Below are positions 1 to 64,000 of a DNA stretch of 64,000 nt, piece after piece (positions within the stretch are counted from its first letter, which is position 1; each line of letters begins with the position of its first letter). Below the pieces are notes generated by a model. The model was given only the letters and a program-made list of their open reading frames with translations, was not told where the DNA came from and ran no database searches. The DNA lies in the IMG/VR virus record IMGVR_UViG_3300035698_000655, positions 1-64,000 of that record, one strand, 5' to 3'. The DNA is from a virus. The position numbers were made by a program, and so were the translations under genes.

Positions 1-15
1 AATATTATTTTTTCT

Positions 16-555: not shown

Positions 556-584
556 TCTAGTTCCTTTTCTCATTTTATACATAT

Positions 585-613
585 ATTATACTACAGGAAG
601 TAGCAAATGTCAA
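585..613 (-). promoter_or_regulatory. Early sigma-70 promoter
   Basis: Read on the minus strand it has TTGACA, a 17-base spacer and TATAAT, a perfect match to the bacterial consensus. It lies about 30 bases before the metallopeptidase-like gene. Confidence 0.8.
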
Positions 614-666
614 ATTCGTAAGTCTTTGATTTAATTGAGGATTTAAAATTAGTTTTGTCAATGATA

Positions 667-813
667 TCAGTCACTTACAGAGACGAGCTGCCTCTCTAGG
701 TCAGCACAGTAGCGTTCGGTCGCTTCAATATCCCAGTCACTACCAGACGTATAGTAGTTCTCCAGCTCATTTTCGGCTGAATTGAGCAGTTCCATCAGTG
801 TTTCTTTGTTCAT
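667..813 (-). CDS. Small acidic protein, 48 aa
   Basis: Short frame starting MNKETLMELLNSAENELE and ending QLVSVSD. AAGGAGTC lies 7-8 nt before the ATG, and a near-consensus early promoter lies 30 bases further upstream, so expression is well supported although the protein is short. It is acidic and probably helical, with no recognisable domain. Small early proteins of T4-like phages often bind host proteins, but nothing here shows a target. Confidence 0.65.
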   Translation of the reverse strand: MNKETLMELLNSAENELENYYTSGSDWDIEATERYCADLERQLVSVSD

Positions 814-843
814 TTACTTGACTCCTTTATTAATTTATAGTAC

Positions 844-872
844 ATTATGACATGTATTAAGGCGATTGTCAA
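844..872 (-). promoter_or_regulatory. Early sigma-70 promoter
   Basis: Minus strand: TTGACA, 17-base spacer, CATAAT. It drives the 48-aa gene and lies back to back with the plus-strand late promoter of the nuclease cassette. Confidence 0.75.
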
Positions 873-874
873 GT

Positions 875-882
875 TATAAATA
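875..882 (+). promoter_or_regulatory. T4-type late promoter (plus strand)
   Basis: Exact TATAAATA octamer on the plus strand, 26 nt before the ATG of the only plus-strand gene pair. It is recognised by gp55-type sigma in T4, and gp55 is encoded in this window. Confidence 0.75.
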
Positions 883-908
883 GTGTTAAATACCCGAGAG
901 ATTAAGAC

Positions 909-1970
909 ATGGCTACCTTTTCACCGAAAAACTTTCCGAGTGATGTTCCCGGCAACAAGAATTTTTCTGGTGCTGGAGAAAGGACTATATACGCTCCAAC
1001 ATCAAAAACTATGTACAAGTATGATAAAGGATTTCATACTGATAAGGCAACTAGTCTCTATGATACTTCCGGCAAAGCAAAGCAACAATTGACTAAGGGC
1101 AAAACTGTTTACTTTACTTTTCCAGCAAAACTTCTAACAGGGCAACAACTCAACATATCAGGCGGGTCTGCTAGGTCAACTTTCGTAGGAGTGTCATTAA
1201 CGTCATGGAAGTCAAAGGTAGATGGTTATGTAGTTCTCAGTCACATAGCAAAACCAGGAGGTGGAGCGCAGAATCGGGTGGCTGCTGGTTCAAAAACTCA
1301 AGACATGTGCGCCACGTATGTGATGGACTTAGCATATAAACAAAAAATTGATGTTAGCGAACAATACAAAACAGCTAGACCAGGTTCTACTGTACCTGAT
1401 CTTGAAATGACTATTGCAAAAAAAGACATACAGTTTGAGATTAAAGGAACTAACAGCAGAACTGCTCCTATCACATTTTTTGACAAGTCTGCTAGTAGAG
1501 CAAAGCCTGCTCCAAAGCTATTAGATGAAATTGCCGTTGAATTTGTCAAGTCTTTACGAAAAGATGGCGTTACATTAGATAAAACTATGGAGTCTATGGG
1601 GTATCCTATTTCATTTATAGGAGCCATAGATTATTTCAAGAGCATAGACTCAACAATAGGATTAGCCGGCGACAAAGGAACTCCTGCGTCAGGAAAACTT
1701 CCTGCTGAGTTCACTACCACAGACACCACAGTGCTTAAAAAACTTCATACGAAAATACTAGAACATTTTAAAGAAGGCGGCGATAATTATTTTGCCATAC
1801 ACAACAGAACAGTAGACACTTTTGAAATATATTATGTCGGGAAGGGAAAAAGTGGAAGTGAAAATGTATTGAAGTTGCCTGCTCTTCCTATGTTCAAGTC
1901 TTTCTCTCTTGCTACTTACGGTGGAGCATCTTCAGGTTCAACTAGATGTGGACTAAAGATTAAATTATAG
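909..1970 (+). CDS. Putative PD-(D/E)xK nuclease, plus-strand cassette
   Basis: 353 aa, no full-length family recognised. Around residues 160-180 it reads PDLEMTIAKKDIQFEIKG, the PD-x(n)-ExK pattern of restriction-type endonucleases: PD, then E-I-K after a short hairpin. The N-terminal 60 residues are rich in Gly, Ser and Thr. It is expressed from a plus-strand late promoter against the direction of every other operon in the window. One nucleotide separates it from the downstream NUMOD3 gene, so the two are probably translationally coupled. A role as a homing or restriction-like nuclease is inference. It could also be a structural protein with a chance motif match. Confidence 0.5.
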   Translation: MATFSPKNFPSDVPGNKNFSGAGERTIYAPTSKTMYKYDKGFHTDKATSLYDTSGKAKQQLTKGKTVYFTFPAKLLTGQQLNISGGSARSTFVGVSLTSWKSKVDGYVVLSHIAKPGGGAQNRVAAGSKTQDMCATYVMDLAYKQKIDVSEQYKTARPGSTVPDLEMTIAKKDIQFEIKGTNSRTAPITFFDKSASRAKPAPKLLDEIAVEFVKSLRKDGVTLDKTMESMGYPISFIGAIDYFKSIDSTIGLAGDKGTPASGKLPAEFTTTDTTVLKKLHTKILEHFKEGGDNYFAIHNRTVDTFEIYYVGKGKSGSENVLKLPALPMFKSFSLATYGGASSGSTRCGLKIKL

Positions 1971-1971
1971 T

Positions 1972-2493
1972 ATGGCAGCTACTCTCTTTTTTATATTTCA
2001 GCATAAGAATCAACTGTACATTGTAGACAATACAAAAGTTGACACTGTGCCTAAGCCTCGTGAGATGATTAGACGAGCTTCTACCATTGAGCAGATACGA
2101 GAGATAGCTGCGTCAATCAATATGGAAGTTATACACGATTCTGCAAGGGATCGCACTCGCAAACACACCGAAGAAGGTAGACAGCGCATTCGTGAGGCGA
2201 AACTAGGCGAGAATCATCCTGCTGTACAGAATGGTAGATCGCAAGAGTTTCGTGACAAAGTATCTAAGACTATGACAGGCACTCGTCAAGGTCAAAACAA
2301 TCCTATGCACGGTCACAAGCATCGAGACTCTACACGACAGAAGATGTCAGAGGCAAGACGCAAGCGTGGTAAGTACAAATGGATATGTGGGCCTGAAGGA
2401 GCAACTACTATACCAGAGTATGAACCTATTCCTGAAGGATGGCTCGCTGGTAAAATATATGATCCTTACAAGCCCACCGAGTTAGATGACTGA
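1972..2493 (+). CDS. NUMOD3-type DNA-binding protein (homing endonuclease partner or remnant)
   Basis: 173 aa. The centre has repeated NUMOD3-like modules: KLGENHPAVQNG, NNPMHGHKHRDSTRQKMSEA. The C-terminus has the motif EPIPEGWLAGK, related to DPIPSGFVEGK in the GIY-YIG protein at 29692-30444. These are DNA-recognition parts of phage homing endonucleases. No GIY-YIG or HNH catalytic core is present; the N-terminal 50 residues (MAATLFFIFQHKNQLYIVDN...) are unrelated to GIY-YIG. The start has no Shine-Dalgarno and follows the upstream stop by one base, so it likely depends on coupling. It may supply DNA targeting for the upstream PD-(D/E)xK-like protein or be the remains of a homing gene. It overlaps the convergent gene by 12 bases. 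Confidence 0.6.
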   Translation: MAATLFFIFQHKNQLYIVDNTKVDTVPKPREMIRRASTIEQIREIAASINMEVIHDSARDRTRKHTEEGRQRIREAKLGENHPAVQNGRSQEFRDKVSKTMTGTRQGQNNPMHGHKHRDSTRQKMSEARRKRGKYKWICGPEGATTIPEYEPIPEGWLAGKIYDPYKPTELDD

Positions 2494-2934
2494 ATACTCA
2501 AAATTATTCGTCTCAGCGTTATCTGCTATCCTGACAGCACCGTTGCTGATGTGAAACTTTGTAGCCATTTCTGTCTTGGGTGACAGAGTAACAATCCTAG
2601 GCCAATAACTCTTAGCAATCTCTGCGTGTTCTTGTTGAACAAATCTTAGTAAACACTCAATGATCTGCCTGCCTGCTCCCTTCTTGTAAGACCAAACAGT
2701 GTAAGGTGTCACAATCATTTCGTGTCCATCTGTGCTGTCTAAGTCTGTCTCAGTTTCTGGCACACTGCTAGTGTAAGCACAACAGATCACCGCTAGAACT
2801 TCAGAGCCTTCAACTAATGCGAACGCTTTCTTTCTACCAGTAGTTCTGTACTCTGCTGAAAGATGTGGACGAACTGGATCATCTTTGATATAAGGAGTGA
2901 GTTGCTCAGTGTTGAGATGTACAAAGTTTCTCAT
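2482..2934 (-). CDS. GNAT-like acetyltransferase-fold protein
   Basis: 150 aa. A central VWSYKKGAGRQIIECLLRFV resembles GNAT motif A (R/Q-x-x-G-x-G/A) followed by the pantetheine-binding helix, and the C-terminal MATKFHISNGAVRI matches the last strands of the fold. Many T4-like marine phages carry small proteins of this type with unknown substrates. The C-terminal tail overlaps the plus-strand NUMOD3 gene end to end. Assignment rests on fold-level pattern only. Confidence 0.5.
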   Translation of the reverse strand: MRNFVHLNTEQLTPYIKDDPVRPHLSAEYRTTGRKKAFALVEGSEVLAVICCAYTSSVPETETDLDSTDGHEMIVTPYTVWSYKKGAGRQIIECLLRFVQQEHAEIAKSYWPRIVTLSPKTEMATKFHISNGAVRIADNAETNNFEYSVI

Positions 2935-2944
2935 TATAAAATAC

Positions 2945-3445
2945 CTAAGATTTTTTTGAAGCCGGCTTTGATTTGGGAGAAGACTTCTTTGCGGTCTTTG
3001 GCTTTGGGCGAGGCTTATTATACTCCTCTATACCTAGCAAAGGCAAGCACTTCTCTAGTTTAGGATACAGCTTCAACAGTGTACCATCTTTCACTGCGGT
3101 TAGAATCTTAGACTCTACCACATGAATGCCTTCTAGTATATTTACCCATTGCTGTTCACGCTTCCAGTCTGGCAAGTTGTTCATGTTGCTATTGGGATCA
3201 ATAAACTGTTTAACTCTACGCCATTCAAGTGTAAGTGTAGTCTCACCCATGCCTTCTGGTACATCAGCTTCAATCTTAGTAAGCTTTGGCAATCCTTCTG
3301 GCAATCGCCAATCGTGCTGTTCAGCACCCACACCCATACGAACGATAGGCACTACTGCTTGATTTTTAGCTGCCCATTCTTTGAGTCTGCTTACTTGTTC
3401 TTGGGGTTCTTTGACTTCAAAAACATATTTGAATCCGTCATCAAT
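2945..3445 (-). CDS. Conserved hypothetical protein with interrupted N-terminus
   Basis: The open frame reads IDDGFKYVFEVKEPQEQV, then VVPIVRMGVGAEQHDWRLPE, and ends in a Lys/Pro/Ser-rich tail (KPKTAKKSSPKSKPASKKS). The only start with a ribosome-binding site (AGGA, 9 nt away) is an ATG at 3466, two bases after the rnh stop codon. It reads MIRSFR and then an in-frame TAA at 3446-3448. A single C-to-T change of CAA would explain the TAA. Otherwise translation must start internally, for example at MPIVRMG (3352), which has no clear SD. Function unknown; the basic tail suggests nucleic-acid contact. Confidence 0.5.
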   Translation of the reverse strand: MDDGFKYVFEVKEPQEQVSRLKEWAAKNQAVVPIVRMGVGAEQHDWRLPEGLPKLTKIEADVPEGMGETTLTLEWRRVKQFIDPNSNMNNLPDWKREQQWVNILEGIHVVESKILTAVKDGTLLKLYPKLEKCLPLLGIEEYNKPRPKPKTAKKSSPKSKPASKKS

Positions 3446-3467
3446 TTATCTAAAGCTTCTAATCATT

Positions 3468-4364
3468 TTAAAAATCCTGTATTACTTCAATCATATTTTT
3501 CATGCGGTTCTTGATAAAATAATTCATCAACTGTGATCTATCACCGCCCTGTTGTTTTTCGTAACTATTTATGACTTCTATTTTGATGTCTTCAGGAGTC
3601 TTGCTCAAGTCTACCAACATCTGATTACGATTGTATCCGTGTGACATATCAGAAGTAATCCATTGTTCAGGCGGGGTCACTTTCCATTCTGCGAGAAGAG
3701 TTTTACGAATAGACTTCTGTCGAGTGCCTTCTACGAAGCAGTTATCACCTGACAGCATGTTAGGCACACCGTCACCCTTGTCGCCTGTAATGATATGTTC
3801 CATCAGAACAGCCGATGCAGATTCTTTAATCTTGATCCACTTCTTTTGTGCAGGAGCGTATTGCTTCACATTGCTCCATTTCTGAAGTTGATTGAAGTCA
3901 TGGTCTCCTGACAGCACGAGAAAAGGAATCTGTGATCCTTCATCGAACAAGCCGTTAGCTTCTCCTGCTGTTTGTGAGTATTCAGCGAGTACACCAATAA
4001 CATCGTCAGCTTCTGCACCGTCAACATCAATCACGGGATAAGGAAAGAATTCATCTAGTTCTGCTCGTATAGTATGCAGGGCTTCGAAGATAGCTGACCA
4101 GTCTAGGTCACTGTCTGAACGAGCTTTCTTTCTGCCAGCCTTATACTGAGGAAACACATCTCGTCTCCAGTATCGTCGGTTATCACATGCAATAATTAAT
4201 TCTTCACCAAACTCTTGTGAGAACTTATTTTTGTATGAACGAATTGTGTTAAGAATCATATGACGAAGAAGTGGAAGATCGACATCTATATTAGAGCCGC
4301 CTCTGTGTCCCACTTCTCCCATGAAGGTAGCGATTGCTACCTGATTAAAGTCCACTACCATCAT
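3468..4364 (-). CDS. rnh: RNase H / 5'-3' exonuclease (T4 Rnh family)
   Basis: 298 aa, close to T4 Rnh (305 aa). It removes RNA primers and adjacent DNA from lagging strands. Acidic metal-binding clusters of the FEN-1/T5 exonuclease family are visible: MMVVDFN at the N-terminus, IIACDNRRYWRRDVFPQYKA, DVDGAEADDVIGVLA, LVLSGDHDFNQL and ITGDKGDGVPNMLSGDN (the helix-hairpin-helix loop). GAGGA lies upstream of the start, and the preceding gene ends one base before. The gene sits at the start of a replication and nucleotide cluster, as expected. Confidence 0.9.
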   Translation of the reverse strand: MMVVDFNQVAIATFMGEVGHRGGSNIDVDLPLLRHMILNTIRSYKNKFSQEFGEELIIACDNRRYWRRDVFPQYKAGRKKARSDSDLDWSAIFEALHTIRAELDEFFPYPVIDVDGAEADDVIGVLAEYSQTAGEANGLFDEGSQIPFLVLSGDHDFNQLQKWSNVKQYAPAQKKWIKIKESASAVLMEHIITGDKGDGVPNMLSGDNCFVEGTRQKSIRKTLLAEWKVTPPEQWITSDMSHGYNRNQMLVDLSKTPEDIKIEVINSYEKQQGGDRSQLMNYFIKNRMKNMIEVIQDF

Positions 4365-4365
4365 C

Positions 4366-5460
4366 TTATATAATCCTCACAATAACCATATCGGGCAGTA
4401 AGCGTTTTCGTGCTGCTAACTTCTTACCTCGTACAGTGTCTACAAATTTGTGCAAGCCATTCTTTCTTGCTGCCATAAACTCTGGCATCTGTACTTCTGG
4501 CTTGCGTAATGTCTTCTCGTAAGACTTTGCGTCTGAATAGTTATCTATACTCGTACCTTTGACACCTAGTGTGCCTTCGTAGTCAGATGCATAGACACCT
4601 AGTTTCTTTCGCTTCACATCATACACCCAAACTTCTGATGCGCCAATGATGTCAACAGGATTCAAACTCTTGAGATTGAGTTCGGCAAACTCTGACAAAT
4701 ACTTTAGCTTGCGAACAAGTTTAGTCTTGTCAGTGGGTCGCTTGCGCTTGATACGAACAATCTTCTTTGACTGTTTTGTTTCAAGCAATCCTGTCTGTAG
4801 ATCATTGAAGTAAGCAAGAATGTTTTTCAGTGTTGACTTTTTGAGGTGTGAGTAACCTTCGATAAGATCACTGTCACCATCTTCACTGCTTCTTGCTATC
4901 TCCAACTCTCTGAACTCTGTAGCGAGAACATCAAGTTCGGTGTATGCCTTAGACAGTTCGGCAGCATTCAACTTGGCATTGTCTATTAAGGTAGTGACAT
5001 TCACATTACCGTTTCGAATAATAACATCTATTGTGTCATCTGCCATGTTGATGAAGTCAATGAGATTGCTGCGAATAGGAACGACAGGTGCTTTTGGCGC
5101 CTCTTCTTTCTCTACAACAATTTCTTTGGCCTTCTGTATCAAATCATCTTTGATGCTGTTAAGGTACGTCACATGCGCTTCTGTCATGTAACCTAGCTTT
5201 GACCAAACATAACCATACTTGCTGAACATTACTAAGCGAGAGTCTGGCAGCTTACTGATATATTGCATATCTTCGGCCGACCAGTTCTCTTTCATCCACT
5301 TCTTGAGAGGTGCTACACCAGATTTCTCTTGCACCTCATAGTGGACGAAATACTCACAATCGCTGAACGCTTTAACACGGTCAGCCTCGTCAGTATATTC
5401 TTTGAACTTCTTCCAATCTGGTACTGGAAGAACATATGTGCTGCGTTGTCGTTTTGCCAT
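4366..5460 (-). CDS. Conserved phage protein of unknown function, early
   Basis: 364 aa, soluble and charged, no family recognised. The N-terminal third is Trp- and Lys-rich (VPDWKKFKEYTDEADRVKAF). The centre (about 150-215) looks helical, and the C-terminal half is basic (KKIVRIKRKRPTDKTKLVRK) with a beta-rich stretch (EVWVYDVKRKKLGVYASDY). A strong AAAGGAG site precedes the ATG, and a perfect consensus sigma-70 promoter lies 28 bases upstream, so it should be made at once after infection and start the transcript that includes rnh. The basic surface suggests nucleic-acid binding; this is inference. Confidence 0.7.
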   Translation of the reverse strand: MAKRQRSTYVLPVPDWKKFKEYTDEADRVKAFSDCEYFVHYEVQEKSGVAPLKKWMKENWSAEDMQYISKLPDSRLVMFSKYGYVWSKLGYMTEAHVTYLNSIKDDLIQKAKEIVVEKEEAPKAPVVPIRSNLIDFINMADDTIDVIIRNGNVNVTTLIDNAKLNAAELSKAYTELDVLATEFRELEIARSSEDGDSDLIEGYSHLKKSTLKNILAYFNDLQTGLLETKQSKKIVRIKRKRPTDKTKLVRKLKYLSEFAELNLKSLNPVDIIGASEVWVYDVKRKKLGVYASDYEGTLGVKGTSIDNYSDAKSYEKTLRKPEVQMPEFMAARKNGLHKFVDTVRGKKLAARKRLLPDMVIVRII

Positions 5461-5487
5461 GAAAGGACTCCTTTAATTGTTATAGTA

Positions 5488-5516
5488 ATTATAACACCAA
5501 GAAGTCGCTTTGTCAA
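5488..5516 (-). promoter_or_regulatory. Early sigma-70 promoter, perfect consensus
   Basis: Minus strand TTGACA, 17-base spacer, TATAAT, with the extended upstream AATGC shared by other early promoters here. Overlaps the 3' end of the radical SAM gene. Confidence 0.85.
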
Positions 5517-6586
5517 GCATTATGTACTATTATTTGACTTCTAGACAGTTGTTCGTTGAATCCACTATCATTTTTACAGGAAATACTGCATGGTTTCATC
5601 GGATGTCTCTCGTTTATGGTTGTTTCTAGCTTTGTCCAGAATTCATGAGACAGTATGTCGGATAGGGTATTTTCGACAGTAATTTTATTAAAATCAATTG
5701 GAACTTTCAATGTCTCACATACACTATCCCACAATTGATGTCGACCAAGCCAGCAACATGGATAAACTTTACCTTCAGCAGTTATGTACACACTTGAATG
5801 CACTTTGGACCAACAAGTAACTTTACCCGGGGATTGGCTTGCATCAATATTTCTAATGGTAATTGATTTATTGTCTGCCATTTTTTCAAACAGTTGCTGT
5901 ATTTCAACCTCTCTGATACTAGTATTGAAACTCCAATCAGCCCCGGTAGAAGGCCAAATCCATTCTCTAGTTGAAAAATCATCATTGAGTATTGGTGTAG
6001 GTTTTCCGTTATTGAACCGTGTACTTGGTCTGGCGGTGAATTTCTCAAATCCCATCTTAGCACTTAATTCTCTTGCATCGTCTACTTCATCTTTGTTGTG
6101 ATGAAATACAGTCATTGCCCATTGTGCTTGTCCTCCGGCTTCAATGAAACTTTTGGCGTTTTCAAATATTCTTTTCAACACTGTCTTTTGTCTATAGATT
6201 TGATGAACTTCTTGTGTTAGTCCATCTATGCCAAACTCTACTGACACACCTAATTTACCTAAAGCAGCCCACTCTCGTTTATTCAAGGCAGATCCGTTAG
6301 TGTTTATCTGAATTTTGGCAGAAGGAAATTTCTCAATCAATGGATTAACCAATGCTAATGCACCACCTGGATACATTACAATATCACCGTAATTGCCATT
6401 TATTAAAACTTCATCTAAAGAATCAATATCAAATGCATCCAATAAATTTATATCAAAATGTGCCAATTTAAATTTAGTTGGTGAGTGGTTGCTCCCATAA
6501 ACATTTCTAGGACATTGAGGACAAGCAGCATTACAATGAGTAGTAGGCTCTAAATGTATATTAGTAATGTTTTTGGGATAACTCAT
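5513..6586 (-). CDS. Radical SAM / SPASM-type protein
   Basis: 357 aa. The N-terminus has CNAACPQC (Cys 18, 22, 25), the CxxxCxxC cluster that binds the [4Fe-4S] of radical SAM enzymes, followed by DSLDEVLINGNYGDIVMYPG and VSVEFGIDGLTQEVHQIYR, typical strands of the partial TIM barrel. A C-terminal group of cysteines (CWSKV, YPCCWLGRHQLW, CSISCK) fits an auxiliary SPASM-like cluster. Such enzymes modify peptides, RNA or small molecules by radical chemistry; the substrate is not evident. It consumes S-adenosylmethionine, which the phage MetK encoded 3.5 kb upstream could supply. It lies downstream of a beta-barrel small protein with a 5-base gap. Confidence 0.85.
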   Translation of the reverse strand: MSYPKNITNIHLEPTTHCNAACPQCPRNVYGSNHSPTKFKLAHFDINLLDAFDIDSLDEVLINGNYGDIVMYPGGALALVNPLIEKFPSAKIQINTNGSALNKREWAALGKLGVSVEFGIDGLTQEVHQIYRQKTVLKRIFENAKSFIEAGGQAQWAMTVFHHNKDEVDDARELSAKMGFEKFTARPSTRFNNGKPTPILNDDFSTREWIWPSTGADWSFNTSIREVEIQQLFEKMADNKSITIRNIDASQSPGKVTCWSKVHSSVYITAEGKVYPCCWLGRHQLWDSVCETLKVPIDFNKITVENTLSDILSHEFWTKLETTINERHPMKPCSISCKNDSGFNEQLSRSQIIVHNA

Positions 6587-6591
6587 TTGTA

Positions 6592-6879
6592 CTAGTTTGG
6601 TGACCTGATATACTCATTCTGTACAGCAAAATCAATGACTTTATCGAACTTGATTGTTCGCCAGCCTTGCTTTTCTGTATCAAACACAGTCAGGACAGTA
6701 GGCGACTTCGCCTTTCCTGTACCCTTCGTTGCTGGTACTACATTCGCTTGCAGGGTACATTTCATGTTGCGAACAGTGCCGTCAGCCTTTTCAAACTGGA
6801 CTTCACATTCATAACGTGTTAAGTAGTCTACTACTTTGCCTTGCCATTTTGCATCGTTACGTTCGGTGTGGTATGTCAT
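6592..6879 (-). CDS. Small beta-barrel protein (DUF2693/WYL_2-like)
   Basis: 95 aa. The pattern LTRYECEVQFEKADGTVRNM, LTVFDTEKQGWRTIKFDKVI matches the small phage SH3/Sm-like fold often annotated as DUF2693 or WYL_2. Proteins of this type are frequent in marine T4-like phages, with no established function. It overlaps the stop of the upstream membrane protein gene by 4 bases, implying a shared transcript. Confidence 0.6.
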   Translation of the reverse strand: MTYHTERNDAKWQGKVVDYLTRYECEVQFEKADGTVRNMKCTLQANVVPATKGTGKAKSPTVLTVFDTEKQGWRTIKFDKVIDFAVQNEYIRSPN

Positions 6880-7841
6880 AATTTATTTCCTTTCTTGTCA
6901 ATTAACCATTCAAGTTTTTTGCGAACTCTTCTATCAAGCCGCTGTACATGTTGCATATCATCATCGGTGATTTCTATAGACTCTTCTGATTCTGATTCCT
7001 CAGTAGGTTCTATGCCGAAGTCTTCGGTGACTGTACCTATATCGTCTATATCTTTTTCGGACATAAAAGTAATACTCTCACCTCTTCTTTCTTTCATACT
7101 CATATTAGCCGCTACAACAAGCAAGATAGCTAACGGATCAAATACTAGTATCAACAATATTATCACAAACCTTACTGTCTTGTCAAGCGTTTCTTTGTCT
7201 GTATTACCATAAATAATCTCAGCGACATATAGTAGTGGTCCGACTTCTACCTCTATCAAAAGCTGCTCTGTCTCTAGGACTAACTTATCGTCTGACAATA
7301 GATCAATGGAGGCGATGGCTTCGTCAATGGAGGTGTTTAGTTGAGTTCTCTCGTCAGCTTGTCTTGCTCTAGTAGCCACAGCTCCATCATCACCTCTGAT
7401 TCTGTCATAGTCGATGAGAGCTTGTACCGCCCCGTCTAGCTGTGAGAGTACTGTCTCAGCGTCTGTAATGCGTCTCTGTTCGCTTTCTATGCGCCTGTCG
7501 AGTCTAGCTACCTGTAGCGTGTTGTCGCCCGTAGAGACGCTGTGTTCGAGGTGAGCCTTGCTCAGAAAGCCGAATATCCCCATTGAAGTGATAATTGACA
7601 AGATGATTACTGCTGCCGAGAAGTATGTCTTAATCGGCAGGCTAGCTGTCTTCCAGTATCGATATAGCCATGATGCGGTCACTAACTTAGCGACTTCTAG
7701 GACTACACCCATTGTCAAAATAGGTACGGCAGCTCCGGGAAAGATTGCCATGAGACCGACAATTGAGAACCAGCCTGCTACAGCGGATACTGCGAGTGCC
7801 GAGAAAAGTAGGAGTGCTATGAAGAACATTTTGGTGTCCAC
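6876..7841 (-). CDS. Membrane protein with central coiled coil
   Basis: 321 aa. Three or four hydrophobic segments lie at the N-terminus (about 5-25, 28-52, 72-93). A long charged, probably coiled-coil region follows (about 105-195), then another membrane segment around 220-245 (VIILLILVFDPLAILLVVAA), and an acidic C-terminal tail (TEESESEESIEITDDDMQHV) ending in basic residues. The layout suggests an inner-membrane protein with a soluble helical domain between membrane parts. The family is common in T4-like marine phages but not characterised. Confidence 0.6.
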   Translation of the reverse strand: MDTKMFFIALLLFSALAVSAVAGWFSIVGLMAIFPGAAVPILTMGVVLEVAKLVTASWLYRYWKTASLPIKTYFSAAVIILSIITSMGIFGFLSKAHLEHSVSTGDNTLQVARLDRRIESEQRRITDAETVLSQLDGAVQALIDYDRIRGDDGAVATRARQADERTQLNTSIDEAIASIDLLSDDKLVLETEQLLIEVEVGPLLYVAEIIYGNTDKETLDKTVRFVIILLILVFDPLAILLVVAANMSMKERRGESITFMSEKDIDDIGTVTEDFGIEPTEESESEESIEITDDDMQHVQRLDRRVRKKLEWLIDKKGNKL

Positions 7842-56228: not shown

Positions 56229-57699
56229 TTGGAACCCTTACTAGCTTGTATTTAAAGCCTTCTTCATTATATATTTTAACTCTTTCGACCATGTGTCCAA
56301 GAGTATAGTTCTTCTTTGATTTCCAGGATATATCATCACCAACATCAAAGAGATTACAACTTGTTTTATTATCACCTTTTCTAAGACCTCTACCAATAGA
56401 CTGTAGGTTTCTTATTCGGCTTTTACTAGGTGAAGCAAAAACAATGTTATGCAAGTTACGAATATTTATACCAGTTGAAAACGTACCATATGAAGCAATA
56501 ATGATAGCATCATTTTCTTTCTCCGTCAATGCTCTTATTTCTTCTCTCTGCTCAGTGTCAGTACCGCCATGGACGAAGAATACTTTTCTATCAGCACCAA
56601 CCTTATCATTTATTAACTGATACAGAACCTTACCATGCTTCTCTACAAACTGAAACAGCACTAGTGTATTGCCTTTTTGTGTAGTACATAAGTTTTTCAG
56701 AAAAGTATTTCGTTTAGGGTGACTTACAATCCAGTCCATCTCTTCTTGATATGTCATACCCTTTACTAGTTTTCTTTCCTGGTCAGAATAGTCAAGGACC
56801 AAACAAGTAATGTCTAAGTTTGCTACTGTATTATCTTCCATCAACTTCTTGGTAGTAATCACATTTTTTACTGTACCAAAGATGCCTTCTAGTACAAGCT
56901 TATGAGTTTTTGTGCCGTCAAGAGTACCAGTAGTGCCGATGCGATAAGGTGCATTAACACACTTGTCTAGGATAGTAGTAAGAGATTTTGCTTTGAAGTT
57001 ATGTGCTTCGTCACCGTAGACAACATCAAACTGTTCGAACCAAGCTTTAGGAAACTTGTAGATAGATTGCCAAGTAGAAATCGTTACTGGATATTCTGCT
57101 GTCTTCTCTTTGCCGCCGTAGATTCTATGACAGTTCTCAGAGACCTGCCAGGCATCTGCTGTTGCATAGTCTCCGAAGTCCCCATACATTTGCTCGACCA
57201 GTGAGGTTGTTGGCACAATAAGGAGCTGCTTACGGCCAAGATGTTGATGATACCGAACAAGATTATAGATAATAAGAGACTTTCCAGATGCAGTTGGGGA
57301 AAGTAAGAGCGCCCTACCCTTGTTAATAGAGTGCTTAACTGCTTCGACTTGGTAGTCTCTGATTTCAATGTCTTTTTCTCCGCTCTGAAGTTTTAGCTTT
57401 TTGGCGAGTGACTCTACATACTGCGTAGAAACTGGATCTCCAACGTCTTTTATATCAACTTCTAATTTGTACTCTAATGTATTTGCAAATTCTTTCAGAT
57501 ATGGCAAGAGACCCACATAAAGCTCTTTACGATACATGTTATAGAGTCTTGCTTTACCGTCCCATGCTCTAGCTTTATACGCAGGCATAAATCTTGCGCC
57601 TGGTACATCGAACGAAAAGAAATCACAAATTTCTTGACCAGTTCCAGGGTCAGTATCTATCTTCAAATACGCTTCATTATATTTTGTAACTTTAATCAC
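56218..57699 (-). CDS. uvsW: UvsW helicase
   Basis: 493 aa SF2 helicase (T4: 503). GRALLLSPTASGKSLIIYNL is Walker A, VYGDEAHNFKAKSLTTIL is the DExH box (DEAH), FATGTLDGT-like TGTLDGTKTHK is motif III and IRNLQSIGRGLRKGD motif VI. It unwinds R-loops and recombination intermediates and shuts off origin replication late. One-base overlap with uvsY. Confidence 0.94.
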   Translation of the reverse strand: MIKVTKYNEAYLKIDTDPGTGQEICDFFSFDVPGARFMPAYKARAWDGKARLYNMYRKELYVGLLPYLKEFANTLEYKLEVDIKDVGDPVSTQYVESLAKKLKLQSGEKDIEIRDYQVEAVKHSINKGRALLLSPTASGKSLIIYNLVRYHQHLGRKQLLIVPTTSLVEQMYGDFGDYATADAWQVSENCHRIYGGKEKTAEYPVTISTWQSIYKFPKAWFEQFDVVYGDEAHNFKAKSLTTILDKCVNAPYRIGTTGTLDGTKTHKLVLEGIFGTVKNVITTKKLMEDNTVANLDITCLVLDYSDQERKLVKGMTYQEEMDWIVSHPKRNTFLKNLCTTQKGNTLVLFQFVEKHGKVLYQLINDKVGADRKVFFVHGGTDTEQREEIRALTEKENDAIIIASYGTFSTGINIRNLHNIVFASPSKSRIRNLQSIGRGLRKGDNKTSCNLFDVGDDISWKSKKNYTLGHMVERVKIYNEEGFKYKLVRVPIGN

Positions 57700-58142
57700 T
57701 ACATCAATCCGTTAGTAAACTTTGTCCACTCCACAGCATTTTTGATATCCCAAGTTCTGCTGTTTAGTGATTTCATTACTGATTCGCATTGATACAGACA
57801 CGCTTTAATGTAATCAATCTTATCCATAATTTTTATAATGTCAGAATCGCTTTCAAGGTATTCTTGCATTTCATTTTTTAATGGCTGAGGACCTAAGTAT
57901 TGGTCCCATCCTAATTCGCCAAGCTCTTCTCTAGAAAGCTCGCCACGAAAGTAACGCCACTTTATACGCCGCAAAGAAAACAGTTGTGATTCGTATTTTC
58001 TTAGTTGCAATTTAAATGTAGTAAGATAGTTCAAATACTTTGAGTGCAACTCAGGGGTTTTCGTAGACTCGCTGCCTAAATTCAACTCGTCAATTTTGCA
58101 ATCAGCCTTCCACTGATCTTGCAAATCGTTCAATGTAATCAT
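57699..58142 (-). CDS. uvsY: UvsY recombination mediator
   Basis: 147 aa (T4: 137). MITLNDLQDQWKADCKIDEL, PELHSKYLNYLTTFKLQLRK and YESQLFSLRRIKWRYFRGEL match UvsY. It loads UvsX on gp32-covered ssDNA. GAGG then TTATATT before the ATG. A late octamer lies upstream. The adjacency to uvsW is as in T4. Confidence 0.92.
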   Translation of the reverse strand: MITLNDLQDQWKADCKIDELNLGSESTKTPELHSKYLNYLTTFKLQLRKYESQLFSLRRIKWRYFRGELSREELGELGWDQYLGPQPLKNEMQEYLESDSDIIKIMDKIDYIKACLYQCESVMKSLNSRTWDIKNAVEWTKFTNGLM

Positions 58143-58798: not shown

Positions 58799-60892
58799 CT
58801 ATCTCCCGTATTGTAAGGATATTAATTCTTCGTGTTTGTTATCTGTGCCAATCATTCGCAGCATAGAGTTTCTATCATTCTGTACACTGCTCGTCGGCAT
58901 GCCTCTGTCAGTGTAAAAGCTAACATCTTGTAGTTGTCCGCTGTATTGTGAGAACGCACTGTTACGACCCATTAAGAACACAGTCAAACTTTGATCTGTG
59001 AATCCACCAGAGTCTTGCATGTTACTAGCAAACTCGTCCAAGTTTTGTTCTAGTTGTTCGTCAGACATATTTTCAGCTTGTGCGTTTGCTTTGTCTGTAG
59101 TCTGTTGTTCTTCTTGACTTGGCGGCGCAACATTGAACCGTGAGAAATCAGGTGGTGCTGTTGAAGTTAGGGCATCGCTTATCGATCCACCACTAGAGAA
59201 AGACTGATCAGCTTGGCTATTGAAATTTTGATTCGATGATGTTGCACCAGAAGATGAGTTATCTGCAATCTCTACCGTTTCTTGTTGAGTTGTAGAAGTT
59301 GTGTTTGCCACTGTGAACACTATAGGGGGTCCACCAAAACTAAAATCTAAATTGTTATCATCGCCGAATACTGATTGTCCGCTACTGAAAGATTGTCCAT
59401 CACTTTCACCCATATCACCAGAACTAGAACCTTGATCGAATGATCCGCTACTAGAAAAGCCTGCGCTTGCTTGGCTGTTGAATGAATTTAAACTTGATTG
59501 AACTGCTGATTCCATTAGTGCTGCTTCAGATTCAATTTGAGTCATAGCGATACCAACAGAGTCTATTCTCCTAGCAGCGTTTGTTCTGGTTCTCGGCACA
59601 TTAGTAGCAGCTTCGATCTTATTGACCGCAGCCACGCTCACAACCTCTTCTTTTATGAGTAATTCTTCAGTATAATTACTCATAGCAGGATTTGATGTGT
59701 AATTTTCTTCTGTTTCTACTACTAAAAACTCGTCTTCGAATACTTCAATCTCTTCATATACCTCTTGCATCTCTTCGTATGCTTCTTGTGGCTCGTCAAA
59801 AGTTTCAGGCTCTATGAAACTTTCTTCTTTGAAATCATCAAACTCTTTTTCTAGAGCTTCTAACTCTGCGAACATTTCATCATTGAAAGAAAAGTTTTCT
59901 TGTTGTCCGTCAAATTTTGGCTCATCATAACCATCATTACCATCATTACCAAAGCTATCATCATATGAATAGTCAAACATAGAAGGATCTTCTTCATATT
60001 TTTCTGCAAAGAAGTCTTGTGCTACTGGTCCTAATGTCATGCTGTTTTGCATATCAGTGAAAGGATCGTCTATGAAATCATAGATGTCATCGCCATATAT
60101 ACCATCATCGAAGCCAAATTGATCGCCAACTGGATCAAATATACCGCATGACTTTGGATCTTCTTCACATGGATCGTAATAAGGCACTGCTGTGTTGAAG
60201 AACTGCTCTTCGCCTAAGTGATTTTCAAATATGCCTGTCTGTGAATTAAAAGACCAGACCTTTGGTACATCTGTAACCCAACCGCCGTTTTGTTTTGATT
60301 TAAATTTAAATTGTGCCCATTCATCTTCGCTAATATCACCTGAGACTCCTACTGTCACATCGTGGTTGACAATTTCAATTTTATCATATCTAAATTTTAT
60401 ATCGCCAGTGTCAAATATTTTTACCTCAAAACTGTTTAACTTATCATCAGCACCGAACTCAGGGATATCATACCAACCAAATGTAGCGTTTGTGCTGTTA
60501 CTTTTAAACCATGGATTTGCATTATATTCAACATCCAAATCAGTCCATAAAGCAAATATCGAATAGTCTAGATATTCCCATGCTTCTGGATTAGAGTCTA
60601 CCATGGCTTGAAAATTTGGGTCGTATGCATCTCGCCCTTCGCAACAAAAGAAAGAGCCTTGTACTTGATCTTGAAAACTAACAACACCAGTATATGTTAT
60701 CCATGCCTGATCAAAGACCTCTCCATACAATGGAAAGCCAAACTGTAAATCAACTTGGGTTTGGCTCAGGTCTTGCAACTGAATCTCCGTTGCCTCTTCG
60801 TCAGTTCTTAAATCGACAAGCACAGAGGGATACTGCTGTCCGAAGACAATAGTGCTAATCAATAATAGAGATAGTGCTAGAAGCTGCTTCAT
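58799..60892 (-). CDS. Secreted NIDO-like domain protein
   Basis: 697 aa. Signal peptide (MKQLLALSLLLISTIVFGQ), then a domain like nidogen NIDO: WEYLDYSIFALWTDLDVEYN, ATFGWYDIPEF, FEVKIFDTGDIKFRYDKIEI, the typical beta-rich pattern with Cys pairs (SFFCCEG, YYDPCEEDPKSCGIF). A long acidic region and a Ser/Gly/Gln-rich tail follow. It is likely periplasmic or on the host surface, or a virion fibre with a signal. Related genes occur in other marine phages. An adhesion or superinfection-exclusion role is possible but unsupported. Confidence 0.6.
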   Translation of the reverse strand: MKQLLALSLLLISTIVFGQQYPSVLVDLRTDEEATEIQLQDLSQTQVDLQFGFPLYGEVFDQAWITYTGVVSFQDQVQGSFFCCEGRDAYDPNFQAMVDSNPEAWEYLDYSIFALWTDLDVEYNANPWFKSNSTNATFGWYDIPEFGADDKLNSFEVKIFDTGDIKFRYDKIEIVNHDVTVGVSGDISEDEWAQFKFKSKQNGGWVTDVPKVWSFNSQTGIFENHLGEEQFFNTAVPYYDPCEEDPKSCGIFDPVGDQFGFDDGIYGDDIYDFIDDPFTDMQNSMTLGPVAQDFFAEKYEEDPSMFDYSYDDSFGNDGNDGYDEPKFDGQQENFSFNDEMFAELEALEKEFDDFKEESFIEPETFDEPQEAYEEMQEVYEEIEVFEDEFLVVETEENYTSNPAMSNYTEELLIKEEVVSVAAVNKIEAATNVPRTRTNAARRIDSVGIAMTQIESEAALMESAVQSSLNSFNSQASAGFSSSGSFDQGSSSGDMGESDGQSFSSGQSVFGDDNNLDFSFGGPPIVFTVANTTSTTQQETVEIADNSSSGATSSNQNFNSQADQSFSSGGSISDALTSTAPPDFSRFNVAPPSQEEQQTTDKANAQAENMSDEQLEQNLDEFASNMQDSGGFTDQSLTVFLMGRNSAFSQYSGQLQDVSFYTDRGMPTSSVQNDRNSMLRMIGTDNKHEELISLQYGR

Positions 60893-61905
60893 CTTGGCAT
60901 GTTAGGAGAAGACTCAAGTTTTTTAGCTTGCCGGTTAGATACACCTGGTACATCAGCTAAGTTTTCTTCCCATGATTGACCAGCTTCATCACCAATCAGA
61001 CCTTTATAAGGACAAGGTGTGCCAGCCATCTTCATCGCAGTCCATACACGCTCGTCTTGACACATCAATGATACCGCTGCAACACGCATACCCATATCAT
61101 AGATTGTCTTGGATAATTTGATGCGCTCACAGTTCGTATCAGTGACAGACTTGCCAGCTGATAGACCAAAGATTTGAGTCTGAACAGAACCCGCTACACC
61201 TGTAGTACATAAGTCTTGAGAGAAAGACGCACCAATAGACGGAGCAATAGCAGACGGTGGAGGTGATTCAATCTTCTGAGTTACCGTCTGATCTGATTGC
61301 GACTGGTTTATATTTTGGTTTACATTATTATTGTTGTTTGTGTTATCAGTAGTTACAGTGCTTTCACTTGTATTGTTACTAGTAGATTCAGAAACCGAAG
61401 TAGAATCGTTGATGTTCGTATTTGTATTGGCGCTAGTCGATGCAGAAGAATTAGTATTAACATTATTACTAGTACTAGTATTCGTGTTGCTGTTAGTATT
61501 GTTATTTGTATTAGTATTAGTGTTCGTATTATTGTTAGTATTAGTAGAGGTATTTACATTTGTATTACTGTTTGTGTTAGTAGAAGTATTTACATTTGTA
61601 TTATTAGTACCTCCACTCAATACATTGTTGTTAGTATTTGTGCTTGTGCTAGTATTAACATTTGTGTTGTTGTTAGTATTGGTGTTGGTGTTGGTGTTAG
61701 TACTAGTGTTCGTATTATTGTTCGTGTTAGTGTTTGCTGTAGTAGCAGTAGAAGTAGCAGTTGAGGTTGATGTGATATTAGTGTCCGCAGTAGACCCCTC
61801 GCAGTACTGAGTTCCAGTAGTACAAGTACCAGTTGCTTGAGCTAACGAAGTATTTGATAATGTAAGGATCATCACAGACATAACAAAGATTAGCAAATAT
61901 TTCAT
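60889..61905 (-). CDS. Secreted Asn/Thr repeat protein
   Basis: 338 aa. A signal peptide (LLIFVMSVMILTLSNTSLAQ) then Cys-containing start (TGTCTTGTQYCEG), a long Asn/Thr/Ser repeat (about 40-190, units such as NTNTNTNNNT), and a C-terminal folded part (GASFSQDLCTTGVAGSVQTQ, CQDERVWTAMKMAGTPCPYK) with several cysteines. The repeat may be a flexible spacer or glycosylated stalk. Overlaps the NIDO protein gene by 4 bases, so both go together. Confidence 0.65.
   Translation of the reverse strand: MKYLLIFVMSVMILTLSNTSLAQATGTCTTGTQYCEGSTADTNITSTSTATSTATTANTNTNNNTNTSTNTNTNTNTNNNTNVNTSTSTNTNNNVLSGGTNNTNVNTSTNTNSNTNVNTSTNTNNNTNTNTNTNNNTNSNTNTSTSNNVNTNSSASTSANTNTNINDSTSVSESTSNNTSESTVTTDNTNNNNNVNQNINQSQSDQTVTQKIESPPPSAIAPSIGASFSQDLCTTGVAGSVQTQIFGLSAGKSVTDTNCERIKLSKTIYDMGMRVAAVSLMCQDERVWTAMKMAGTPCPYKGLIGDEAGQSWEENLADVPGVSNRQAKKLESSPNMPR
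61370..61750. repeat. Low-complexity Asn/Thr codon repeat
   Basis: Imperfect tandem repetition of AAT/AAC and ACT/ACA codons on the minus strand encoding the Asn/Thr stalk. Units vary, so length change by slippage is likely. Confidence 0.75.
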
Positions 61906-61983
61906 TACTAGCCTCGTAGTGTGTCAATAATACGACACTTAATGGGTGTTATAGTGATCTTTTTTAATCTAATAGCTATTTGT

Positions 61984-62007
61984 AAACTGTCACAATTAAG
62001 ACAGTTT
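61984..62007 (-). terminator. Hairpin terminator, weak
   Basis: Perfect 8-bp stem AAACTGTC / GACAGTTT with an 8-base loop, just after the tail-tube-family gene. Only short T runs, so possibly bidirectional and leaky. Confidence 0.5.
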
Positions 62008-62013
62008 TGGTAG

Positions 62014-62595
62014 TTATATCGACTCTATTTTATATTGTCTGTATTTAAAAGAAGCTACGCCTTGAAAATAATCAGTATTGCCAGATGACAACTCAAACTC
62101 AAGTCCGCCCAGAGCTACAGGGAACGCATCTTGAAACACAATTTTTATTTGTGGATTGTTATTTGAGTCCAAAATAAACAAAGAAGCGTCACTGAAATTA
62201 CCCAGAGACTTTTGCTTTGATGGATTTACATCTGGAAATCTATAAGACTGACTGCTTGAAAAGTCAGTGTATTGTTTATGAGACTCGGGAAAGCCTAGAC
62301 CAATAAGCCATTCGTATAGCTCATTGTAGTTAGACATGTTCTCTTGAATGATAAATCGAATAGTGAGTTCGCCGTAAGCAAGCTTATCGCCAGGCTCATA
62401 GTAATCAACTAGAGGAGTAGCGACTTGAGGAGAACCCATTTGTACATCTGGAATATTTGCAGACTGACAGAAGAATGAGACATTAGGAAGGTTGTGAACC
62501 ATAAACTTAAAACCATTAGGTTTAAGATAGTCTAGTTCACCAGGATTCCCAGCGTCCCATGTTGCCTCTGTGACATTTGCTAATACATCAACCAT
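62014..62595 (-). CDS. Tail tube-family protein (gp19/gp54-like)
   Basis: 193 aa. LKPNGFKFMVHNLPNVSFFC, QSANIPDVQMGSPQVATPLV and YGELTIRFIIQENMSNYNEL, EWLIGLGFPESHK follow the pattern of T4 gp19/gp54-type tube and tube-initiator proteins in marine T4-like phages. Preceded by a late octamer. Which of the tube paralogues it is cannot be decided from this gene alone. Confidence 0.7.
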   Translation of the reverse strand: MVDVLANVTEATWDAGNPGELDYLKPNGFKFMVHNLPNVSFFCQSANIPDVQMGSPQVATPLVDYYEPGDKLAYGELTIRFIIQENMSNYNELYEWLIGLGFPESHKQYTDFSSSQSYRFPDVNPSKQKSLGNFSDASLFILDSNNNPQIKIVFQDAFPVALGGLEFELSSGNTDYFQGVASFKYRQYKIESI

Positions 62596-62620
62596 AGTGT
62601 TATCCTTTATTCGATAACAC

Positions 62621-62628
62621 TATTTATA
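62621..62628 (-). promoter_or_regulatory. T4-type late promoter
   Basis: TATAAATA on the minus strand, 26 bases before the tail-tube-family gene. Confidence 0.75.
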
Positions 62629-62632
62629 ACAA

Positions 62633-62740
62633 TTATACTACTGCGATTGCTGCTAATAATACAGGAGATGACACTACTAATGCTATTGCAAGTGTAATCG
62701 CAGCTTCCAACTTATCAGTTTTGGTGCCTATAAATTTCAT
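62633..62740 (-). CDS. Small membrane protein, 35 aa
   Basis: MKFIGTKTDKLEAAITLAIA then LVVSSPVLLAAIAVV: a short polar head and one membrane segment. AAGGAACTGA lies before the ATG. Lies above the tail gene in the gap. Size and type suggest a regulatory or lysis-related phage membrane peptide. Confidence 0.6.
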   Translation of the reverse strand: MKFIGTKTDKLEAAITLAIALVVSSPVLLAAIAVV

Positions 62741-62867
62741 TTCAGTTCCTTGCCTCGTGAGCAAAATAAAGTTAAAGTAAATAAGCGCCTTGATAAAACA
62801 CTCATTAATATATATAAAAAATAATCGTCAAAATGACAACAACGTGTAAGAAAGTAGCATAGTGTTG

Positions 62868-62975
62868 TCAGAATTTGTATCGTGGAGAACCTGCTAGACG
62901 CTTGCGTTCTTTCATTGAGAGATGAGAAAAATCTATACCTGCTCTTAATCTTATTTTAGGCTTACCATTTTTCAT
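62868..62975 (-). CDS. Small basic protein, 35 aa
   Basis: MKNGKPKIRLRAGIDFSHLS then MKERKRLAGSPRYKF. Strong AGGGGG site upstream of the ATG. Very basic; no family. Lies 25 bases below the stop of the oxidase-like gene. The 127 bases below it are AT-rich and show nothing. Confidence 0.55.
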   Translation of the reverse strand: MKNGKPKIRLRAGIDFSHLSMKERKRLAGSPRYKF

Positions 62976-63000
62976 TCTACATCCCCCTGGTTTTAAAATG

Positions 63001-64000
63001 TTATTCTACATTCTTCCAAGTGAATGCCCCGAAGAACATTTCATCCTCTGACATCTGACCCCACGGAACATCTCTGCTAGGATCAGGATTCATTTTATTC
63101 TCTGCTGAGTTGTCAAATGCTCCTTCTACAAACAGTCGTGTACCTACTGGTAGGAACTTAGGCTCTCTCCAAGTGTATGACAGTTGCCAAGCATATTCGT
63201 ATCGTGGCACATCAATCAATTCTTCTGACGAACCATCTGGATAGAATGCAGTTGCTTTCATGCTCTTGCCACGGAAATGCATATGCGGTAAGAATGTGTG
63301 TAAGTTTACATCTTGCTTTAATACTACTTCTGCTGTCTGTACAAAGTTAGGATCAAATGCAGGGATAGTTGTCCAGTTGTTAGGGAAGATACAAGCACAG
63401 TCGCCTGCCATTCTCTCTTCTGGTACTACACCTTCATCGTGGAAGTACAAACCAATTCTTGCTTCGTCAGTTCTTGCTACGCCGTCTGGAGTGTAGTGTA
63501 GCTGCAAGTTTACTGTTGAACCTGCTCGCAACAAACCACCAGTATTTTCGTCATAGAAGTCTGGATCACCGCCTGGTACATATGCACTCACACTGGCATT
63601 GTCCATGTTCTGCTGTTCGCCGCCTTGTGTGCCTAAGATATTGCCATTACGCTCGCCCGGTACACTTACTGAGTTCAGCATGTGATGCATTACTGTAGGC
63701 TCTGAAGGCAAGAACTGTGAACCACGAAGCCAACGGTCTTCAGTTAGTCCTAAGTCTACACCAACATAACGATATGGAATCGCAGAAGGACCAGCAGGAA
63801 TTTCTTGTGCTGGTACATAGACAATCATATCAGGCTCACCGTGTACCCACTCTGATGTTGAGTATACAGTTTCTGTTAGAGGATCTCTGTCACCTTCGAC
63901 AGGTGCACCTGCATCAATCCACTGCACAATAGTCTCCATCTCTGTATGACTTAATGTACGATGATTGATAATATCCTTTGCATACTTGCGATCAATCTGT
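63001..64000 (-). CDS. Copper type II monooxygenase-like protein, 5' end outside the window
   Basis: The frame is open to the window edge; about 333 residues are visible. The first residues (YAKDIINHRTLSHTEMETIV, QWIDAGAPVEGD) look like the end of a c-type cytochrome domain. The rest resembles the PHM-like copper ascorbate-dependent monooxygenase C-terminal fold, with MHHMLN and VNLHTFLPHMHFRGKSM as copper-histidine sites. Such genes are known from bacteria of marine and soil origin, not phages. Either an acquired metabolic gene or a join to a host-like sequence. Base composition looks less AT-rich than the phage genes nearby. Confidence 0.6.
   Translation of the reverse strand, partial: QIDRKYAKDIINHRTLSHTEMETIVQWIDAGAPVEGDRDPLTETVYSTSEWVHGEPDMIVYVPAQEIPAGPSAIPYRYVGVDLGLTEDRWLRGSQFLPSEPTVMHHMLNSVSVPGERNGNILGTQGGEQQNMDNASVSAYVPGGDPDFYDENTGGLLRAGSTVNLQLHYTPDGVARTDEARIGLYFHDEGVVPEERMAGDCACIFPNNWTTIPAFDPNFVQTAEVVLKQDVNLHTFLPHMHFRGKSMKATAFYPDGSSEELIDVPRYEYAWQLSYTWREPKFLPVGTRLFVEGAFDNSAENKMNPDPSRDVPWGQMSEDEMFFGAFTWKNVE

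Follow-up and report, generated by a model that had tools for sequence, protein, structure and literature searches.

The window, which is the whole stretch of 64,000 bases of viral DNA analysed here, corresponds to bases 1-64000 of a virus record of 64,612 bases. Its end, from 63001 to 63999 in the ORF listing, is filled by a single open frame on the minus strand, which is the 3' part of a gene, here called gene B, that is complete in the record and encodes 415 aa. Extension of the contig, a check named in a preliminary description of this DNA, completed gene B and added the end of a second gene, gene A, which stops 138 bases upstream of the start of B on the same strand and of which the record holds the last 74 aa (Table 1). 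From the N-terminus, gene B encodes a signal-like segment, a CQSCH motif, an MPP motif and a cytochrome-c-like helix, followed by the copper-domain motifs MHHM, LQLHYT, PHMHFRG and DEM; the C-terminal part of the cytochrome c domain lies inside the window, with the CQSCH motif just beyond the window edge.

Two features that first drew attention to the gene hold in part. Its composition had been called unlike that of other genes here, and its GC content (0.446) is indeed the highest of 29 window ORFs compared, but the second highest is 0.443, with a mean of 0.394. Its short gap to a small gene had been read as a sign of phage origin; a 35-aa ORF does lie 25 bases away, but the spacer holding it has no match in two separate viral contigs (L001 and L028), so the gap to this ORF says little. 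Searched alone against Pfam, PHROGs, NCBIfam and PDB, the B fragment gave no match beyond one chance PDB hit (E 0.29).

Table 1. Features of the locus and of related cassettes; coordinates refer to the window except where another source is named.
Feature	Coordinates	Strand	Evidence or remark
Gene B	63001..64000 (63001-64248 in record)	-	ORFs, ligand alignment, DBH/PHM profile match, signal heuristic
35-aa ORF, doubtful gene	62868..62975	-	in variable spacer between B and tail-tube gene
Gene A (partner of B)	record 64387-64611, outside window, cut by record's end	-	complete copies elsewhere
T4-like tail tube gene	62014..62595	-	phrog_45, E 2.6e-34
uvsY recombination mediator, T4-like core gene, flanking	57699..58142	-	Pfam UvsY, 1.4e-29
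Small c-type cytochrome genes	L035 9397-9768; L069 1224-1529		Pfam Cytochrom_C; both overlap start of B

Homology of these proteins to the copper monooxygenases DBH and PHM was recovered only with bacterial relatives in the profile. A profile from 17 relatives matched human DBH (E 1.3e-17) and rat PHM (3e-12) in the PDB over about 250-265 profile positions, with the ligand positions of both copper sites aligned, whereas profiles of phage B alone or phage A alone retrieved no copper enzyme from the PDB. The motifs thus align with human DBH and rat PHM positions, which confirms the preliminary reading of a cytochrome-c-like end followed by a PHM-like copper domain. The ligand alignment, comprising five phage B, four phage A and eight bacterial proteins (17 sequences), has 20 invariant columns, among them C44, C47, H48, M80, H188, H189, H251, H322, H324 and M404; we take H188, H189, H251, H322, H324 and M404 to correspond to the six copper ligands of PHM.

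Rows for the trees and for dN/dS were picked with motif filters (CxxCH, HH, DEM or EEM), so invariance in an alignment of such rows is partly built in. A separate set of distinct phage ORFs, 75 A and 55 B, was chosen by profile without any motif filter. The CuH ligands (a His pair and a third His) occur in 75/75 A and 55/55 B of these, and the CuM ligands are equally constant, with HxH in all 130 and the Met in every ORF that reaches that far. Ligand motifs are otherwise complete in this set; the misses fall at truncated ends (L184, L178 and L079), and one ORF (L041) has QEM in place of DEM, with the Met kept. DBH and PHM have a cysteine after the DEM methionine, whereas A and B have none.

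Structure prediction points the same way. The AF2 model of A, made from the copy in L004, has a pLDDT of 64, better in the copper domains and below 50 in the cytochrome part; its best Foldseek matches are PHM/DBH (E 2.5e-10), with TM-scores by query length of just 0.33-0.39. VIA placed DBH first (Z 13.5, rmsd 5.0, 252 residues aligned) and PHM second (Z 12.7, 4.6, 239), at 10-15% identity in the structural alignments, ahead of the next, unrelated, protein at Z 8.7; matches at Z 8.7 and below are unrelated proteins and were disregarded. Gene A is accordingly predicted to have the two-domain PHM fold. The AF2 model of B was poor (pLDDT 52), and the fold searches used the A model. At the Pfam cut-off, neither phage A nor phage B matched Cu2_monoox_C, and none of six close bacterial relatives of B passed the Pfam copper-monooxygenase model, while among other bacterial relatives L085 and L086 passed Cu2_monoox_C and L088 fell short of the cut-off; a search with Pfam PF03712 gave no match in the record, but none in any of 14 controls either, and so carries no weight. 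We file phage A and B as divergent relatives of the PHM/DBH class and not as Pfam members. A PDB match to hydrazine synthase (E 0.014) covers the heme-motif region only and was dropped.

The cytochrome domain, of the class I c-type, is equally constant. CxxCH is found in 55/55 B and 74/75 A profile-chosen ORFs, the single miss being truncated, and MPP is found in all 130; its methionine, M80, is invariant in the 17 sequences and probably binds heme. Against Pfam, phage A scored below the cut-offs for both Cytochrome_CBB3 (19.8 bits, cut-off 27) and Cytochrom_C (17.3 bits, cut-off 21.3), and phage B scored more weakly than A against the cytochrome models, also below cut-off.

Complete copies of gene A, such as the 431-aa gene at 8343-9638 of L004, have the same domain architecture as B. 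A and B within one locus share 25.5-29.5% identity (53 loci) and are distant paralogs. Scans of IMG/VR found 117 stretches encoding relatives of B, of which the best 80 were fetched (best-segment identity 79-97%), and 232 stretches encoding relatives of A, of which the best 80 were likewise fetched. Pairing was counted over 158 loci, made up of the window's own, the 80 B-scan loci and a further 77 contributed by the A scan; 39 of the 158 repeat an already counted contig, by contig name, leaving 119 distinct contigs. A is followed by B on 82 of these 119, always with A first, on the same strand and up to 679 bases apart. A stands alone with at least 800 bases after it on 21, and alone near the contig edge on nine; B stands alone on seven, all at an edge with less than 600 bases upstream, so B is never without A where A could be seen. 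Whole-record searches of 17 of the 21 A-only records, plus one edge case, found no B, in records that may themselves be fragments. The cassette also occurs on viral contigs given as 339,794 (L005) and 216,820 bases (L008) long, which may be jumbo phages or may include other DNA.

A third gene is present in some cassettes. Of the 89 distinct contigs with B, 13 have a small gene with CxxCH (95-123 aa) immediately preceding B; in 11 it lies between A and B (L035, L069, L027, L028, L029, L032, L036, L039, L041, L043 and L135), and in the other two (L018 and L037) the contig ends before A. The two that were scanned, from L035 and L069, pass Pfam Cytochrom_C at 32.9 and 34.1 bits (cut-off 21.3). The A-B cassette of the window has no room for such a gene.

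Both genes appear to be maintained, exported and transcribed together. Median dN/dS is 0.096 for A (491/1378 pairs used, with two of 55 sequences left out for ambiguous bases) and 0.106 for B (1222/2701 pairs used), the pairs in both cases not being independent; judged from these ratios, A and B are both under purifying selection. Signal-like N-termini were recognized by a simple rule in 55/55 A and 72/74 B. The motif TATAAATA, which we take to be the T4 late-promoter consensus, was scored 20-75 bases before ORF starts. It occurs exactly in 9/37 distinct A upstreams and 0/46 B upstreams, and with at most one mismatch in 20/37 A and 1/46 B, being missing from 17/37 A; shuffled A upstreams gave means of 0.5 (exact) and 6.1 (at most one mismatch) of 37, and 537 ORFs of at least 150 aa gave 10.8% and 22.9%. 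A late-type motif before many A and hardly any B suggests, with moderate confidence, that A and B are made as one transcript from before A, probably late in infection.

The setting of the cassette is that of a T4-like phage. In L001, window stretches 61760-62763 and 63001-64000 have counterparts at 95.5% and 93.9% identity, 94 bases apart, and in L028 the counterparts of the tail-tube and B stretches abut, at 78-81% identity; among the loci compared, no alignment runs unbroken through 62868-63001, because the spacer varies. The same gene thus stands beside the same tail-tube gene in separate contigs, which supports the preliminary view of a real phage gene, and the flagged gene is not a chimera. 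The gene after B belongs to the tail-tube family in 19 of 80 loci, some of which are near copies, and to five other families in 15, 13, 7, 7 and 5 loci; with six different next-gene families, the cassette stays together in different surroundings. Families in these loci match the PHROGs tail tube, uvsY, lysozyme, uvsW-like helicase, late sigma factor, thymidylate synthase (ThyX) and PhoH, at least one of these seven being present in 45/80 loci, and the other 35 are classed as viral by IMG/VR. The window helicase reaches at most about 60% identity with helicases from cyanophages and Methylophilales phages, and the window tail tube is 42% identical to its best named-phage match; we read the carriers of the cassette as probable T4-like phages without a close named relative. 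Two secreted-looking proteins are encoded nearby, a 338-aa protein with a long Thr/Asn repeat stretch (window 60889-61905) and, between the tail-tube region and uvsY, an acidic protein of 697 aa (58799-60892); each has a counterpart in L004 and no Pfam match.

Bacterial genomes were searched around G001, a Pseudomonadales-titled MAG holding the contig L082, and genomes were sampled from its class, phylum and order. L082 was the sole match of a genome-contig scan with two short patterns, which detects close relatives only. It was rejected as a case of bacterial carriage: in its stretch 1-6996, the bases up to about 4750 hold bacterial-type genes at 50-64% GC, followed by phage-like DNA at 40-45% GC that begins inside gene A. 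In L082, bacterial DNA thus seems to have been joined to phage-like DNA, either as a phage fragment in the bin or by mis-assembly, and the contig served only as the centre for the taxon searches. Profile searches matched 13 of 369 genomes in the class and 4 of 398 in the phylum. Besides G001, full-length relatives occur in four of the 13 and one of the four, and the three of these that were scanned are redoxin-cytochrome-copper fusions; eight weaker class-level matches cover the cytochrome part only, L089 being the one of these taken on to further alignment.

The order of G001 was richer: of its 390 genomes searched, 34 gave a match at E 1e-20, counting G001 itself. Among the other 33, close relatives of A occur in nine (best 705-865 bits; a tenth has 528), with up to seven A-like copies per order genome at E 1e-100, and close relatives of B occur in 13, including all nine (best at least 417 bits, open frames of 572-644 aa). 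Because the genomes bearing both are related to one another, the co-occurrence does not count as an independent association. In 9/9 genomes the best A and best B are on different contigs, and in two of these the contigs are 0.4-2.8 Mb long, so that A and B are not adjacent there. Phage A shares 71.5-85.9% identity with its best chromosomal match (19 compared), and phage B 53.7-56.1% over the cytochrome and copper domains (13 compared). The order of G001 is probably the host order, a reading supported afterwards by these close chromosomal genes.

Trees were built from 19 phage A (12 paired, seven alone), 13 phage B and 61 bacterial rows. Phage B forms one clade at 100/100, which branches with a redoxin-fused bacterial subgroup at full support. 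Phage A does not form a single clade in the trees: two changes are required by the starred branches, and the fewest found is three. An AU test, set after the quick tree had been seen and including L019 on a long branch, opposed a single phage A origin (p 5.7e-05), and in the trees phage A appears to have more than one. The placement of three bacterial A genes, as sister to the main phage A clade or inside it, differs between the quick and the careful tree; in the careful tree the chromosomal A genes of L224, L225 and L226 are inside, which could mean phage-to-host transfer. A and B group with bacterial chromosomal genes, as the preliminary description had supposed in calling the gene host-like and asking for a phylogeny, and the trees show their bacterial kinship.

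The bacterial relatives of B carry a redoxin domain that varies in its state. Pfam AhpC-TSA exceeds its cut-off in L085, L086 and L088; among six close relatives of B, three pass, two are below the cut-off and one has no match. The first 75 residues of this domain hold no cysteine in 17/17 close B relatives examined (of 28 listed at 417 bits or more), and one cysteine in 14/14 other redoxin fusions over the same stretch, so its decay seems to have been under way already by the time phage B came to lack it. The cysteine-less redoxin is nevertheless kept as a fusion in L206, L214-L217, L231, L237, L238 and L250-L258. Several chromosomal A genes adjoin a redoxin-fused paralog, a 324-aa secreted-looking protein, an MFS transporter and a beta-lactamase-fold hydrolase, neighbors that weakly hint at uptake and breakdown of some organic compound; the 324-aa protein, a 419-aa secreted-looking protein and the redoxin-fused paralog in L224 have no Pfam match at 0.01. 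Two or three A genes stand in tandem on some bacterial contigs (L222 7804-12611; L220, L221, L223 and L224), and chromosomal A is an expanded, unnamed family beside the conserved 324-aa protein.

Auxiliary metabolic genes are a known kind of phage gene, and A and B have their hallmarks, being found on phage genomes, of bacterial descent and kept by selection. That phage A and B are secreted-looking and side by side suggests an oxygen-using enzyme brought to the outer compartment of the host. We consider it fairly probable that they form an auxiliary metabolic cassette of two genes, bacterial in descent and carried by uncultured T4-like phages, that acts as a periplasmic monooxygenase. A and B would be exported to the periplasm, where heme would be attached by the host cytochrome c maturation system. 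Ascorbate serves PHM and DBH as electron source; here the cytochrome parts may replace it, passing electrons from the host respiratory chain to CuH, a route that the small cytochrome gene of some cassettes fits, and CuM would activate O2 and hydroxylate the substrate. The likeliest use would be to sustain or alter an oxidation in the periplasm that the donor bacteria carry out by means of many paralogs.

The joining of genes that are not adjacent in bacteria, together with the dependence of B on A and not the reverse, suggests that A and B act together. They may work in one complex or one pathway, with A primary and B its partner. The occurrence of A without B in some phages, in records that may be fragments, indicates that the phage need not always supply both subunits of an enzyme, and there the host's own B could serve. 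A more specific proposal, which we hold tentatively and at rather less than even confidence, is that A and B constitute a periplasmic, cytochrome-fed, two-subunit dicopper monooxygenase that went unrecognized as its bacterial genes are non-adjacent, and that phages join both in a late operon, some with a small cytochrome, redirecting periplasmic oxygen chemistry.

Other explanations of the locus and of the cassette are less probable. Bacterial chromosomal DNA attached by mis-assembly to a phage contig at the record's end would account for a gene near the record edge with the highest GC of the ORFs compared and with bacterial relatives outside phages, and one MAG contig, L082, does look like such a join. 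The unchanged neighbors in L001 and L028, however, make a chimeric assembly very unlikely, and it is opposed also by the six next-gene families, each in at least five of 80 loci, by neighbor families matching late sigma factor, uvsW-type helicase, ThyX and PhoH, and by the single phage B clade apart from the bacterial copies compared; we give it almost no weight. Non-catalytic or neutral cargo retained by chance would suit proteins that have no known activity or substrate, but dN/dS of about 0.1, ligands conserved wherever covered and a phage A of more than one origin (the AU result above) make this highly improbable.

Two further readings grant the proteins a function but a different one. As a redox or oxygen sink, secreted heme-copper proteins would use up O2 or peroxide in the periplasm, or sequester copper there, and thereby shield the infected cell; A and B do look like secreted heme-copper proteins, and in bacteria relatives of B carry a fused peroxiredoxin-like domain (AhpC-TSA). 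That domain, however, has no cysteine in the 75 residues examined of the close relatives of B and is lacking in phage B, and a full set of dicopper ligands suits a hydroxylase better than a copper store, which leaves the sink quite unlikely. PHM hydroxylates peptides, and the pair might similarly hydroxylate a host surface component or a phage or host peptide, aiding lysis or blocking superinfection. The likely periplasmic location, the late-type promoter motif and a T4-type lysozyme gene in 20/80 loci, near the cassette in several, are consistent with such modification of the envelope, but the neighbors of the cassette are many and different and the several chromosomal paralogs of both families point to ordinary metabolism, so that we regard it as unlikely. 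The periplasmic monooxygenase cassette is our preferred reading.

The preliminary description had considered carriage by a phage to be new, and the searches agree: neither gene B nor gene A had a match among 50,697 named phage records, no paper on a phage-borne pair of the PHM/DBH class was found in the open-licence PMC literature, and the main text of one article (PMC11360552) contains no mention of monooxygenase, copper, cytochrome, peptidylglycine or dopamine. The cassette, which occurs on many viral contigs, also indicates a likely host lineage for an uncultured group of T4-like phages. The meeting in phages of two bacterial genes that are not adjacent also yields a direct hypothesis, that A and B cooperate and are cytochrome-fed, concerning a bacterial protein family without known function. 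PHM/DBH-type copper monooxygenases with their own cytochrome c would be an added enzyme class among phage-carried genes.

Other copper oxygenase genes are carried by viruses of microbes, amoC and pmoC among them. These encode subunits of membrane copper monooxygenases with another fold, whereas phage A and B are two whole proteins of the soluble PHM/DBH class. With DBH and PHM, which are type II copper monooxygenases, they share a homologous domain in which the copper ligands HH+H and HxH+M align, and the A model has their fold; they differ from them in carrying a cytochrome c domain in front, in lacking the cysteine after the DEM methionine and in falling below the Pfam Cu2_monoox_C cut-off. 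The stand-alone chromosomal A genes (open frames of 448-490 aa, several in tandem) have the same domains as phage A, but several of them adjoin a more distant redoxin-fused paralog and not the close relative of B. Similarly, phage B branches with one subgroup of the bacterial redoxin - cytochrome c - copper monooxygenase fusions (frames of about 570-800 aa), but in contrast to these it has no redoxin domain and is paired with A.
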